This document shows, one piece after another, positions 44,260 through 50,593 of a stretch of DNA of 64,000 nucleotides. Under the pieces are notes generated by a model. That model had not been told where the DNA came from. It worked only from the letters and a program-made list of their open reading frames with translations, and did no database searches. This stretch comes from Bacillus marasmi (GTDB lineage Bacteria > Bacillota > Bacilli > Bacillales > Cytobacillaceae), in assembly GCF_902168435.1 (NCBI RefSeq), contig NZ_LR656171.1:1-64000 (forward strand), read 5' to 3'. Both the position numbers and the translations under genes were made by a program. Position 1 is the first letter of the stretch, and every line of letters begins with the position of its first letter.

Positions 44260-44991
44260 TTGCATACTACTAATTCTCTAAATTTGTCGCAGTTTACATT
44301 TTCAGTAAATAATCATGAAGCCAGCTTTGAAGATATTTTTCCTGATTTTAACGAAACCGACAGAATTGGAATTGTTCTCCGTAGCCCTGGAGGCAGCGCA
44401 GGAGCTAGCAGTTTGCTCATGGCTGCAATTACAAAATTTTATGATTTTCATCGACCTCTATTAGGAGCCGAAAAAGATAAGCTTTGGATTTATCCGGATT
44501 ACTTTGCATTCCATATTAATCATTGGCATATGGATCACTACTGGCTCGATGTTTGGCCGCCCCATAAGGAAGTTATAGTTGAAAACGATCCTGAGCAAAT
44601 ACTCGAGGCGATTAACGATCGAGGTATTACAAGATTGATAGTAGAAGATATGTCACCAAATCAAGCTACCTTTCTTCGTGAAACGGTCACAAACGCCAAA
44701 CTTCGGATTAAAAGCGCATTAGCTTATGCCGCAAATGGTAGAGTGGAAAACGACGATGTTCGGATTCGAAATAGGTCACAAGCTGAAACATACGTTAGAG
44801 ATTCCTTGAAACGAACGAAAGGTATTTCGTCTGAGTTTTATCAAGAAATATGTAACGCAAGAGACGGGTTGGTAGTTGATGATTGGGTGGAGGAAACCTT
44901 TCGAAGAATTAAAGTAGACGATGCGTTGAATATGCTAAGCGATTCGACCGAGCCTGGTCCAACAACTAAGCATTATATTTCGTTATTGTGA
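44260..44991 (+). CDS. Hypothetical protein, 243 aa, divergent from N-demethylase cluster
   Basis: Soluble protein with no signal peptide. It has an aromatic, His-rich stretch FAFHINHWHMDHYWLDVWPPHKEV near residues 85-110, noteworthy as a potential metal or substrate site, and a glycine-rich IVLRSPGGSAGASS near 38. The start is TTG with AAGGAGAG nine bases upstream. It lies between the cupin and the ferredoxin reductase genes but on the opposite strand. I do not recognise the family; a role linked to the cluster is a guess from location. Confidence 0.65.
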   Translation: MHTTNSLNLSQFTFSVNNHEASFEDIFPDFNETDRIGIVLRSPGGSAGASSLLMAAITKFYDFHRPLLGAEKDKLWIYPDYFAFHINHWHMDHYWLDVWPPHKEVIVENDPEQILEAINDRGITRLIVEDMSPNQATFLRETVTNAKLRIKSALAYAANGRVENDDVRIRNRSQAETYVRDSLKRTKGISSEFYQEICNARDGLVVDDWVEETFRRIKVDDALNMLSDSTEPGPTTKHYISLL

Positions 44992-47917: not shown

Positions 47918-47960
47918 CGCAGTAAAGCGGTGGGGGACAGTCCCCCACCGCTTTACTGCG
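47918..47960. repeat. REP-like perfect palindrome, full copy
   Basis: A 20-base arm beginning CGCAGTAAAGCGG and its exact complement flank a CAG centre. It is the fullest copy of the element also seen at 168-194 and 46165-46203. The last two codons and stop of the encapsulin-associated ferredoxin lie inside it. Confidence 0.85.
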
Positions 47961-48312
47961 CTGATGCTTGGCAGGCTAGTCGATAGCCTTTTTGGACGAG
48001 GCTTTCGAGTTTTTTTGCCTCTGCTTGATTTGGCTGTGTTAGATAGGATTGCCCATTAACAATTCTTAGCGTACATTTGCCACACGTGCCCTTTTTGCAC
48101 TTATAATCCAACCCTACGCCGCTCTCGAGCGCCGCTTCAAGGATATTTTGACCAGGATATATTTCAAATTTGAAATAGTTCTGCTTTTGTTCAATTTCCA
48201 AGATCCGTTTTAATTCCTTGAATTTGTTTTTAGTAATGACAATGGATTTACTTTGTGTTGAAGGCTTTCTTACTCCCGGTTTTAATGAACCAATCGTTAA
48301 TTTTTTCTCCAA
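47953..48312 (-). CDS. [2Fe-2S] ferredoxin with N-terminal encapsulin targeting peptide
   Basis: About 119 residues. C-KKGT-C-GK-C near residue 75 and a final Cys in RLACQA are plant-type ferredoxin ligands. The N-terminus reads KKLTIGSLKPG, nearly the same as the LTVGSLKH tail of the IMEF cargo at 49907, so this protein should also be loaded into the encapsulin shell. A 2Fe-2S ferredoxin has been reported as a cargo in Firmicute IMEF systems, where it may release stored iron by reduction. GGAGGG abuts an ATG at 48318; the TTG at 48310-48312, six bases away, is the better start. Two Fur boxes lie upstream. Confidence 0.85.
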   Translation of the reverse strand: MEKKLTIGSLKPGVRKPSTQSKSIVITKNKFKELKRILEIEQKQNYFKFEIYPGQNILEAALESGVGLDYKCKKGTCGKCTLRIVNGQSYLTQPNQAEAKKLESLVQKGYRLACQASAQ

Positions 48313-48370
48313 TCTCATCCCTCCATTTTCACAAAATAAATTATTAACAAAATCGACACCATTAATTGTA

Positions 48371-48431
48371 TTGACTGATAATGATTATCATTGTAGAATA
48401 AAGCCATACTTGAAAATGATAACGGTTATCA
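48371..48431. promoter_or_regulatory. Two Fur boxes with overlapping SigA promoter
   Basis: TGATAATGATTATCA (48376-48390) is a perfect 7-1-7 Fur box, and TGATAACGGTTATCA (48417-48431) is a second one. The first lies in the 17-base spacer of a plus-strand promoter TTGACT (48371-48376)/TAGAAT (48394-48399) that drives the unknown gene at 48489. The sites also lie upstream of the ferredoxin gene on the minus strand, so iron should repress both. Confidence 0.85.
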
Positions 48432-48488
48432 CTGATAAAACTTAAATTTTATTTAAAAAAATCTATCCTCTCATAGGAGGCTGACAAC

Positions 48489-48953
48489 ATGAAATTTCAA
48501 ATCAATGGTTTAAAGGATATTCATAAAGTGATTGTAAACGAACGCAAAGTTGGTGGTGCAATCGAGGTTGAAACTCTTCGTCTTCGCACTGGTGAAACCT
48601 ACCACCATGCAGTCATTACGAATATCGATTATATTGGTCTTTCAATTTATTCTATCGGCTTCGTCACAGCCGATGGACAAAACCTAATCATCAATATTTC
48701 AGAGCTTGGTTTACTTCATGAACCAAAGCACAAAAAAATATTTGAACTAAATAATGAAGCCTATAAGCAAATGAAAACGATGGATAAATTGAGATACCTA
48801 AAGCGCTTATTTGAAGTAAATGAAGGCAGCCCAACTCCTATTTTCCGTGAGGAAGCAAAAATGATTATTGATGATATTGGTCTACCAGTAGCTAATAAAG
48901 AAGTTGATACGACTATTGTCTATCCTGATAAGAAATTAGTATCTATTGCATAA
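48489..48953 (+). CDS. Fur-controlled protein of unknown function in the encapsulin locus
   Basis: 154 residues, soluble. The first 85 residues look beta-rich (KVIVNERKVGGAIEV, TYHHAVITNIDYIGLSIYSIGFV); the rest is helical. No cysteine and no encapsulin targeting motif are present, so it is probably not a cargo. TAGGAGG lies eight bases before the ATG. A consensus promoter overlapped by a Fur box lies 90 bases upstream, and the gene is between the ferredoxin and the shell gene. It may help iron release, uptake or sensing, which is inference. I do not recognise the family. Confidence 0.8.
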   Translation: MKFQINGLKDIHKVIVNERKVGGAIEVETLRLRTGETYHHAVITNIDYIGLSIYSIGFVTADGQNLIINISELGLLHEPKHKKIFELNNEAYKQMKTMDKLRYLKRLFEVNEGSPTPIFREEAKMIIDDIGLPVANKEVDTTIVYPDKKLVSIA

Positions 48954-48963
48954 AATAATATAA

Positions 48964-48995
48964 AAGAGGCTGCCAAGAGGTCAGCCTCTTTTTTT
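48964..48995. terminator. Rho-independent terminator
   Basis: AAGAGGCTG (48964-48972) pairs with CAGCCTCTT (48982-48990), then a run of T. It ends the plus-strand unknown gene and lies between it and the converging encapsulin gene. Confidence 0.88.
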
Positions 48996-49040
48996 GCGAA
49001 TTGATTTCACCCCTAAACGAGCCGCTTCCGCTTTTCGCTA

Positions 49041-49889
49041 TTACTCATTAAAATCTTCCAATGTACAGATGGCTGTCGGGCGTTTGATTCTTGGGACGAT
49101 TGCTTCATAGACACGGAAGTGATAATTCATATTATCCAAGTCTAAAAAGACTGTATCAAAGTCGCTTGCAATCGCTAAATCTAGGTTTTGTTTACCTGCA
49201 TCGACTACAACTCCTGTACCGCTTTTGATCATCGGAGACTGGTACACACCAGCTGTCATTAATTCACGAATATGCTCAATTTCAAGCACATGTGTGCCTT
49301 GATGAACACGGTGCACAAGCGCATACAATTCCGGTGATAACACAAGCGCGTAAGGACCTGTATGTCCCATTCTCAGTAACTTATTGCGCGCTTCCACGAC
49401 ATCGCTAAACGCATTTCCGGATTCCATCCAATCACTACGAATATGAGACAACTTCCCCTTCACATTCATAATGCCTTGAATATGAAATTCCTTGGAGCCA
49501 TTAAAAATGATATCATCCTCAAGCAAAGCACATTGTTGTGCTGCATTGGCTGATGCAGAAAAATCAATTGGGCTTCTTAACGTTTTTGCCTGCTGAATAT
49601 CACGCCAATATAAAACAAAATCCTTATACAGCATCGGAATCGTTAATGTGACACGACGCGTGGGTACCGATAATTCTGAGTCCTCTCCATGAAAACTTAT
49701 CGCACCTGATTCTGGATTCTCGTAAATATCATTTGTTACTGATTGAACCCCTTCTCCAAGCGGGCCATATATATCAATAAATCTTCTTCCTACTAATTGC
49801 TTCTTTACACTTTCAAATACAGTTTGTTCAAGTTCATGCCATTCCTCTTTCAACAATGGTGCTTCTGGAAATGCTATTGTTTTGTCCAT
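49041..49889 (-). CDS. enc: Encapsulin shell protein (family 1, IMEF type)
   Basis: 282 residues with HK97-type capsid fold. LKEEWHELEQTVFESVKKQLVGRRFIDI (start of the N-arm and first helix), GPLGEGVQ and the P-domain/A-domain order are those of linocin-like encapsulins. The length and the IMEF gene next to it match the large iron-storing compartments of Bacillaceae (the Quasibacillus thermotolerans type, 240 subunits). AGGAG lies eight bases before the ATG at 49887-49889; the GTG at 49898 is rejected. It follows the IMEF gene by 17 bases in the same transcript. Confidence 0.93.
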   Translation of the reverse strand: MDKTIAFPEAPLLKEEWHELEQTVFESVKKQLVGRRFIDIYGPLGEGVQSVTNDIYENPESGAISFHGEDSELSVPTRRVTLTIPMLYKDFVLYWRDIQQAKTLRSPIDFSASANAAQQCALLEDDIIFNGSKEFHIQGIMNVKGKLSHIRSDWMESGNAFSDVVEARNKLLRMGHTGPYALVLSPELYALVHRVHQGTHVLEIEHIRELMTAGVYQSPMIKSGTGVVVDAGKQNLDLAIASDFDTVFLDLDNMNYHFRVYEAIVPRIKRPTAICTLEDFNE

Positions 49890-49906
49890 ATCGTTCACTC
49901 CTATTA

Positions 49907-50551
49907 TTAATGCTTCAAGCTACCTACAGTTAAGCCTTTTTTCGCATAAGGTTGGGATACACCAGAAACATTCTGTTCTAAAGCTTTAGTTCCCGTACTT
50001 TGGTGTTGATGTTCATGATCATGATCATGGTCATGTTCTCCGGCATATGCAGCAATTTTTAATTGCTCACTTATTCCCTCTTTTTCATCAGTCGGAATAG
50101 AGGTATTAAATTGGATACCACCCTTAAATTCTTGATTCAGTGTATCCAAAATCCCCTTCATGCGTTGATAATCCTCGTATGTAAAATCTCTAAGCTCCTG
50201 GATTTTTGGTTCAAATTCTGTTCCTTTAAATTGAAAAAGTGACAAGTCTAAATGCTCGAGAAAATTGTGTAAGCCAAACTTCTCCAAACTAATATCCTGA
50301 AGCAGATGGAGAAAATCTCCATGTTTTTCAGTCAGATTAATTCCTTCAGATACAATTTGTTCCAATTTTGGCATGAGCAGATTTAAACGATCATCGCGGT
50401 GATCCTCTTCTTCATAAATATGGTGCCAATACAGACGCTCGTGGTCATCGGTAGCATTATCGATGATAGGTGTGATCATTCCTTTGAAATCAGTTAAAGC
50501 GTTTCTAGTTCTTTGAAAGATTGAATCCATTTCAGAAAATGTTGATTCCAA
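49907..50551 (-). CDS. IMEF iron-mineralising encapsulin cargo
   Basis: 214 residues of ferritin-like helices with Glu/His-rich segments (YWHHIYEEEDHRDDR near 41-55). Residues 173-184 are a His/Asp run, and residues 206-213 (GLTVGSLK) are the C-terminal targeting peptide that docks inside the shell. IMEF proteins oxidise and mineralise iron in the compartment. The start is TTG at 50549-50551 with GGAGG ten bases upstream. A palindrome precedes the ribosome site. No Fur box was seen here, unlike the ferredoxin promoter. Confidence 0.93.
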   Translation of the reverse strand: MESTFSEMDSIFQRTRNALTDFKGMITPIIDNATDDHERLYWHHIYEEEDHRDDRLNLLMPKLEQIVSEGINLTEKHGDFLHLLQDISLEKFGLHNFLEHLDLSLFQFKGTEFEPKIQELRDFTYEDYQRMKGILDTLNQEFKGGIQFNTSIPTDEKEGISEQLKIAAYAGEHDHDHDHEHQHQSTGTKALEQNVSGVSQPYAKKGLTVGSLKH

Positions 50552-50566
50552 ACCCTATTCCCCTCC

Positions 50567-50587
50567 GCTAATAAAATGGTTATTAGC
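50567..50587. promoter_or_regulatory. Palindrome upstream of the IMEF gene
   Basis: GCTAATAA and TTATTAGC form a perfect 8-base inverted repeat around AATGG, directly beside the IMEF ribosome site. It may be an operator or a leader hairpin; the binding factor is unknown. Confidence 0.45.
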
Positions 50588-50593
50588 AAATAT

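Follow-up and report, generated by a model that had tools for sequence, protein, structure and literature searches.

The encapsulin locus of Bacillus marasmi

The window, a 64-kb stretch of Bacillus marasmi DNA, contains an encapsulin locus in which a family 1 shell protein and the ferritin-like cargo protein IMEF lie near a [2Fe-2S] ferredoxin and an uncharacterised protein of 154 residues, here called X154 (Table 1). Open reading frames were identified by Pfam and NCBIfam profile searches with curated cut-offs. The shell scores 299.4 bits against NF041155 encap_f1 (cut-off 100) and also matches PF04454, IMEF scores 239.9 bits against TIGR04536 (cut-off 100) and 195.1 against PF24309 (cut-off 27), and the ferredoxin scores 47.6 bits against PF00111 Fer2 (cut-off 21). 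With shell and cargo both above their curated cut-offs and a C-terminal targeting peptide on IMEF, the locus is of the IMEF type.

An earlier, sequence-only reading had placed shell, IMEF and ferredoxin in one locus and had proposed the Quasibacillus thermotolerans set for comparison; the coordinates, the profile matches and the best PDB match of the shell (6nj8), with that of IMEF to 6n63, agree with it. Its interpretation as an IMEF encapsulin with a tagged ferredoxin stands, but it overlooked X154 and the Fur box between X154 and the ferredoxin. X154, on the opposite strand, separates the ferredoxin from the shell, and a terminator-like hairpin follows it. Because these two elements intervene, ferredoxin, shell and IMEF share one locus but are unlikely to form a single operon. 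The likely true start of the shell gene is the ATG at 49889, whose spacing is better than that of the GTG at 49898.

Table 1. Genes and sequence features of the encapsulin locus, with positions counted from the first letter of the window
Feature	Position	Strand	Basis
Family 1 encapsulin shell protein	49041..49898	-	NF041155, 2e-89; best PDB match 6nj8, 4e-115
IMEF ferritin-like cargo	49907..50551	-	TIGR04536, 2e-71; PDB 6n63, 4e-34; start TTG
[2Fe-2S] plant-type ferredoxin, N-terminally tagged	47953..48318	-	PF00111 Fer2, 1.6e-12
X154, uncharacterised 154-residue protein	48489..48953	+	No Pfam or NCBIfam family; co-occurrence with IMEF; AlphaFold2 models
Perfect 7-1-7 Fur box TGATAATGATTATCA	48376..48390	.	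0 mismatches; intergenic region common to X154 and ferredoxin
Second Fur-like box TGATAACGGTTATCA	48417..48431	.	2 mismatches; about one such match per 64 kb expected by chance
Promoter-like site before X154, TTGACT-N17-TAGAAT	48371..48399	+	Consensus match; 14 sites found in the region, 10.7 expected
C-terminal targeting peptide of IMEF, GLTVGSLKH	49910..49936	-	Sequence; C-terminal motif in 77/78 relatives
N-terminal targeting peptide of ferredoxin, LTIGSL	48283..48300	-	Sequence; 59/61 relatives; pattern match
Terminator-like hairpin between convergent X154 and shell	48975..48990	+	3 such sites found, 1.8 expected

X154 as a companion of IMEF

Three genome sets were searched, representing the family (193 genomes), the order (397) and the class (289); they overlap in at least G000, G024 and G300. 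IMEF and X154 occur together almost without exception. In the family set each is found in 44 genomes, 43 of them shared. The order set has IMEF in 35 genomes and X154 in 34, all 34 shared, and every pair lies on the same contig and on opposite strands. For the class set the counts are 38 and 39, with 38 shared; 35 of these 38 pairs are on the same contig and opposite strands, two (G692, G722) are on the same strand and one (G696) is on different contigs. IMEF matches exceed the curated cut-off in 31 of 35 genomes of the order set and 35 of 38 of the class set, that of G637 being barely significant (9.7e-4), and the X154 of G614 is a fragment at a contig end.

The exceptions are mostly broken loci. 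X154 without an IMEF match is seen in one genome of the family set, none of the order set and one of the class set. The first (G126) retains only remnants of X154, ferredoxin and shell; in the other (G586), X154 stands beside a shell (7e-109) and an open reading frame that ends in RRPLSVGSLVIY and matches the IMEF profile weakly (2e-4). IMEF without X154 is found in G105, which lacks a shell in the 10-kb locus, and in G568, with a frame of 75 residues. Several genomes have more than one match to both proteins: two to IMEF and two to X154 in each of G003, G005 and G731, and in G064 four to X154, alongside two complete IMEF copies and further fragments. The second IMEF match of G025 and of G156 is weak. 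Broken IMEF, ferredoxin or shell genes also adjoin X154 or an X154 remnant in L191, L256 and L118.

A separate scan of 84,980 species genomes with the X154 alignment returned 85 relatives, of which 80 were kept as named loci chosen by X154. They come from Niallia, Neobacillus, Domibacillus, Cytobacillus, Brevibacillus, Ammoniphilus, Alkalihalobacillus and other genera. Shell and IMEF lie within 8 kb in 78 of the 80, always with X154 on the strand opposite to the shell (78/78), and 61 also have the ferredoxin; two Brevibacillus loci (L142, L145) have neither shell nor IMEF. Little DNA extends beyond X154 in L140, L183 and L187, or beyond IMEF in five Brevibacillus loci. X154 as a plasmid gene was rejected, with no match among 72,556 plasmid records.

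The X154 family seems to be newly recognised as a near-constant companion of IMEF capsules. No description of it was found in the literature searched on encapsulin, IMEF and iron, which included passages of PMC6668986, PMC8346489, PMC11202242 and PMC7762939.

A Fur box before X154

The strongest sign that X154 may belong to an iron-starvation arm is the Fur box between X154 and the ferredoxin. In the window this box has no mismatch and sits inside a promoter-like site reading into X154; 20 Markov-1 controls of 64 kb gave no Fur-box match with zero or one mismatch. Among the named loci a box with at most two mismatches lies within 200 bp upstream of the X154 start in 76 of 80; when the loci are clustered at 70% identity, 17 of 19 clusters have one. 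Such a box appears in 0.7% of cases when this DNA is shuffled, and before 20 of 583 other ATG frames of at least 200 residues in these loci. Within 300 bp, boxes precede 2 of 78 shell, 18 of 78 IMEF and 12 of 61 ferredoxin genes, and 44 of 1600 random pieces. Twelve extra loci behave less uniformly: six have a box with at most two mismatches that, judged by position, precedes X154 (L254, L257, L258, L260, L262, L263), in L255 the box falls within a long frame, and none is present in L253, L256, L259 (X154 cut), L261 or L264. Judged by its promoter-region box, X154 would be a member of the Fur regulon, presumably off when iron is plentiful and on when it is scarce.

The boxes upstream of IMEF are of more than one kind. 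Fur-like boxes are found there in 13 of 17 loci in which no ferredoxin was found (L128, L132, L137, L139, L140, L141, L143, L144, L146, L147, L150, L154, L156) and in 3 of 61 with a ferredoxin. The 13 are largely from Brevibacillus and not independent, and a divergent neighbour could own the boxes. The other two of the 18 IMEF boxes, in L183 and L187 of Alkalicoccobacillus, read TTATAAT-N-ATTATAA and lie near the IMEF frame as TTATAATTATTATAA and TTATAATAATTATAA; they are PerR-like. A further element, GTAATAAA-like sequence followed by GGNRATAATGG, recurs before IMEF in the leaders of L193, L195, L197 and L198. It resembles a forespore sigma-F/G promoter and, if it is one, would place storage in the spore. 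The motif was seen in one clade, among 21 leaders from 41 loci tried; the other 20 loci had no anchor and were dropped.

X154 and the linked ferredoxin

Since the named loci were chosen by X154, the constancy of X154 and of the ferredoxin was compared in genomes chosen by IMEF. Across 47 IMEF loci of the window's family, a tblastn search with the window proteins detected 46 shells, 45 copies of X154 and 43 ferredoxins; G006 (L079) is a split assembly with X154 on a separate contig. The comparison was extended to the first 20 IMEF genomes of the class set after G000, one of which (G024) belongs to the window's family. All 20 have X154, and three (G300, G692, G695) have the ferredoxin beside IMEF. 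Two others (G666, G686) have a strong ferredoxin match (E below 1e-34) on another contig, that of G666 without the tag region, so that a ferredoxin anywhere is counted in 5 of 20; weaker matches elsewhere are probably other ferredoxins. The match in G686 (C107:134457-134822) includes the tag region and is possibly an unlinked tagged ferredoxin, the IMEF gene being on contig C24. Among IMEF-chosen genomes X154 is at least as constant as the ferredoxin, and further out it is far more constant.

Gene order varies among the named loci. The most frequent arrangement, in 40 of 78 named loci, is IMEF-shell-ferredoxin with X154 convergent. The order of the window, IMEF-shell-X154 (opposite)-ferredoxin, occurs in 13. 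No ferredoxin was found in 17, it lies on the X154 strand in seven and it precedes IMEF in one. Relative to the Fur box, 13 of 61 ferredoxins lie across it from X154 and divergent, and 7 of 61 share the X154 strand. Outside the named set, L257 (G722) and L258 (G692) have X154 on the IMEF strand and upstream of that gene, with a one-mismatch Fur box before X154. L255, where IMEF and shell have diverged, has a ferredoxin reading MSKKLTVGSLIES beside them, directly downstream of X154 and on its strand.

Targeting peptides and ferredoxin type

IMEF ends in KKGLTVGSLKH, and the ferredoxin reads MRLEKKLTIGSLKPG, with LTIGSL at residues 7-12 and LTIGSLKPG at residues 7-15. The sequence-only reading had seen one docking motif at opposite ends of the two proteins, and the relatives bear this out. 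The IMEF motif falls within the last 16 residues in 77 of 78 named relatives, the remaining one having TVGNL. With ferredoxin starts sought within 15 codons of the motif, the motif lies 3-13 residues past a start codon in 59 of 61 ferredoxins; of the two exceptions, L138 has the motif with no start called and L191 is broken. In the window, only 1 nt separates GGAGG from the ATG at 48318, against 7 nt for the TTG at 48312, and because of this spacing the true start may be the TTG, two codons later. That start would still leave MEKKLTIGSLKPG, so the motif is kept with either start, and a different start codon would not bring about the loss that the sequence-only reading had allowed for.

A motif scan of the whole genome used the degenerate DNA pattern YTNACNRTNGGNWSNYTN, which covers only codons of the [LF]T[VIM]GS[LF] kind. 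It matched 25 places, against 15 for the reversed control pattern, and 10 of the 25 encode [LF]T[VIM]GS[LF]. Only IMEF, near its C terminus, and the ferredoxin, near its N terminus, have the motif at the end of a protein-sized frame. Four of the other eight sites are in frames of 26-57 residues and four are inside longer frames, 48-243 residues from the end. No further tagged cargo is evident among the 25 places.

An IMEF encapsulin with its own tagged ferredoxin is a supported identification that is already published, as the sequence-only reading had stated. The N-terminal tag on IMEF-linked ferredoxins and their co-purification with shells are reported in PMC8346489 and PMC11202242. The latter, a 2024 review, describes iron release as yet to be shown and ferredoxin encapsulation as not clear. 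In passages of the eLife paper PMC6668986, a ferredoxin is given for 70% and a ferrochelatase-like gene for 31% of 71 operons. By description, the Q. thermotolerans system of that paper resembles the window in its shell, C-terminally tagged IMEF and linked [2Fe-2S] ferredoxin; it differs in that the extra parts named there are the ferredoxin and the ferrochelatase-like gene, with no mention of X154 or a Fur box in those passages. A compartment combining an iron mineraliser with a reductive release protein is plausible. The tagged ferredoxin and its co-purification reportedly go back to Giessen and Silver in 2017.

The same passages of PMC6668986 term the IMEF-linked ferredoxin homologous to Bfd, the bacterioferritin-associated ferredoxin. 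The domain differs. All 34 ferredoxins scanned, one from the window and the others from 33 of the 59 relatives with the tag, match PF00111 Fer2, with C-x4-C-x2-C...C, and no Bfd family was listed for any of them at E ≤ 0.01 in a Pfam scan. Homology to Bfd was therefore rejected, and the likeness is one of proposed role only: both would supply electrons for iron release from a store. A plant-type ferredoxin in place of a Bfd changes which reductases to try in reconstitution.

A perfect 20-pair hairpin with a T-rich tail (47918-47960) overlaps the ferredoxin stop codon and is probably the ferredoxin terminator. Elsewhere, a 243-residue open reading frame at 44260-44991 has no match in Pfam or NCBIfam. 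The genome also has two PF00210 (ferritin) matches, presumably Dps proteins to judge by motifs in the frames.

The predicted fold of X154

X154 belongs to no Pfam or NCBIfam family, and NCBIfam and PHROGs return only scattered weak matches with no agreed family. Two AlphaFold2 models, with middling scores, predict an N-terminal helix and a small five-stranded barrel of the Sm/Hfq-like kind (residues 6-83), followed by a helical domain and a conserved C-terminal tail. Hfq chains come first in the two VIA lists and in the two Foldseek lists for the PDB; the Foldseek matches also include WYL regulators and YgdR/DUF903 lipoproteins. Identity with Hfq is unsupported by sequence: a Pfam-A scan lists no Hfq family for 33 X154 members, and hhalign against 13 Hfq sequences (from 26 loci fetched) gives a probability of 0.2%, with a shallow Hfq alignment (Neff 1.7). 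As modelled, X154 would have the helix and barrel of Hfq/Sm-like proteins but differs from them in lacking a sequence link, in its additional C-terminal helical domain and tail, and in its neutral isoelectric point. The genome encodes an ordinary Hfq besides X154. A sequence search of the PDB gave 20 X154 profile matches; 11 are to designed TPR repeats, cover residues 85-118 and were taken for repeat artefacts. In a viral fold library no match reached E ≤ 0.001, the best being 1.4e-3.

A proposed division into storage and starvation sides

The best reading of X154 is that it serves as the starvation arm of the store, because it is a near-invariable companion of IMEF, persists where the store has no ferredoxin detected next to it, and is preceded by a Fur box. 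The system would then have two sides. On the storage side, which is of a known kind, the shell and the IMEF ferroxidase, docked by its C-terminal tag, would deposit iron within the capsule. Under iron shortage Fur would leave its box at 48376-48390 and X154 would be made; in the clade of the window, the tagged ferredoxin would be made along with it from the shared intergenic region. X154 would act on the shell or its cargo such that stored iron is reduced and let out, and the ferredoxin, where present, would carry the electrons for that reduction. We hold this two-sided design, with X154 acting in iron release under starvation, only tentatively, at somewhat less than an even chance.

Several observations weigh against this reading. 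The Fur boxes are sequence matches with up to two mismatches, and related species in the genome sets are not independent. X154 lacks a TVGSL tag, and its modelled fold pulls towards RNA rather than release: it is no less suggestive of binding to nucleic acid than of binding to the shell. Sixteen of the 78 named loci have a Fur-like box for IMEF itself, 80-250 bp ahead of the frame. The ferredoxin is nearly as constant as X154 in the window's family, and 40 of 61 ferredoxins follow the shell gene on the same strand, at a distance from the Fur box. The position of X154 upstream of IMEF in L257 and L258 would favour synthesis together with the store.

The first alternative draws on the fold. X154 may be an RNA-level off-switch, an Sm/Hfq-like protein that is released from Fur repression and keeps the IMEF-shell mRNA from being translated or hastens its decay. 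In E. coli, Fur, RyhB and ferritin form a circuit to which such an off-switch would be the protein counterpart. In Bacillus, the Fbp proteins are Fur-controlled iron-sparing partners of the FsrA RNA; X154 resembles FsrA with FbpA/B/C in that it is likely made on iron starvation, and differs in being tied to the encapsulin locus. Two possible modes of control were tried. A conserved IMEF-leader hairpin as the target of X154 was rejected, the mean z being -0.12 over 60 leaders of named loci (18 of 78 IMEF loci were left out because no start was found); the window leader folds at a minimum free energy of -15.6. Antisense control of the shell by X154 transcription is not favoured in the window, because the terminator-like hairpin lies between the two genes. 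An inverted repeat, GCTAATAA/TTATTAGC, occupies 50567-50590 directly before the IMEF Shine-Dalgarno site. A similar leader repeat occurs in a close relative (L072/L120), where the predicted L120 fold does not use it, and it is not general among the 60 leaders.

Iron release nevertheless seems the better choice over a shut-off of synthesis, and we lean towards it for three reasons: iron can leave a closed capsule only with the help of a dedicated factor, this factor cannot be the linked ferredoxin in genomes that lack one, and the genomes with two IMEF loci carry two X154 genes (G003, G005, G731). We consider the off-switch rather unlikely, while regarding it as a serious competitor.

A second alternative makes X154 a factor for capsule assembly, quality control or proteolysis that is not specific to iron release, for example an adaptor bringing old shells to a protease. 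According to PMC6668986, a two-gene operon of the Quasibacillus shell and IMEF is enough for assembly and mineralisation in E. coli, and Fur control fits a starvation role better; such a factor is improbable. Least probable is the model of the sequence-only reading taken alone, in which IMEF stores, the tagged ferredoxin releases and X154 is a passenger: the conserved ferredoxin tag, the co-purification with shells reported in PMC8346489 and PMC11202242 and the 43 ferredoxins in 47 family loci are in its favour, but beyond the family X154 persists (20/20) where the linked ferredoxin mostly does not (3/20, with G024 of the family among the 20), the Fur box at X154 is conserved, and X154, which as a passenger would be lost, is hardly met away from IMEF.

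Implications

The starvation-arm reading would make X154 a new family: a Fur-repressed Sm-fold protein that IMEF encapsulins require as a third core part and through which the cell uses encapsulated iron in starvation, with the ferredoxin an accessory of the release route and not part of the core. We put this forward as a possibility that still falls a little below the balance. If it is true, iron release from encapsulins, the step that PMC11202242 calls unshown, would involve X154. As a near-constant partner of IMEF with a Fur box before it, X154 would offer a direct genetic handle on iron exit from the encapsulin, and the system would fall into one side for storage and another for starvation.

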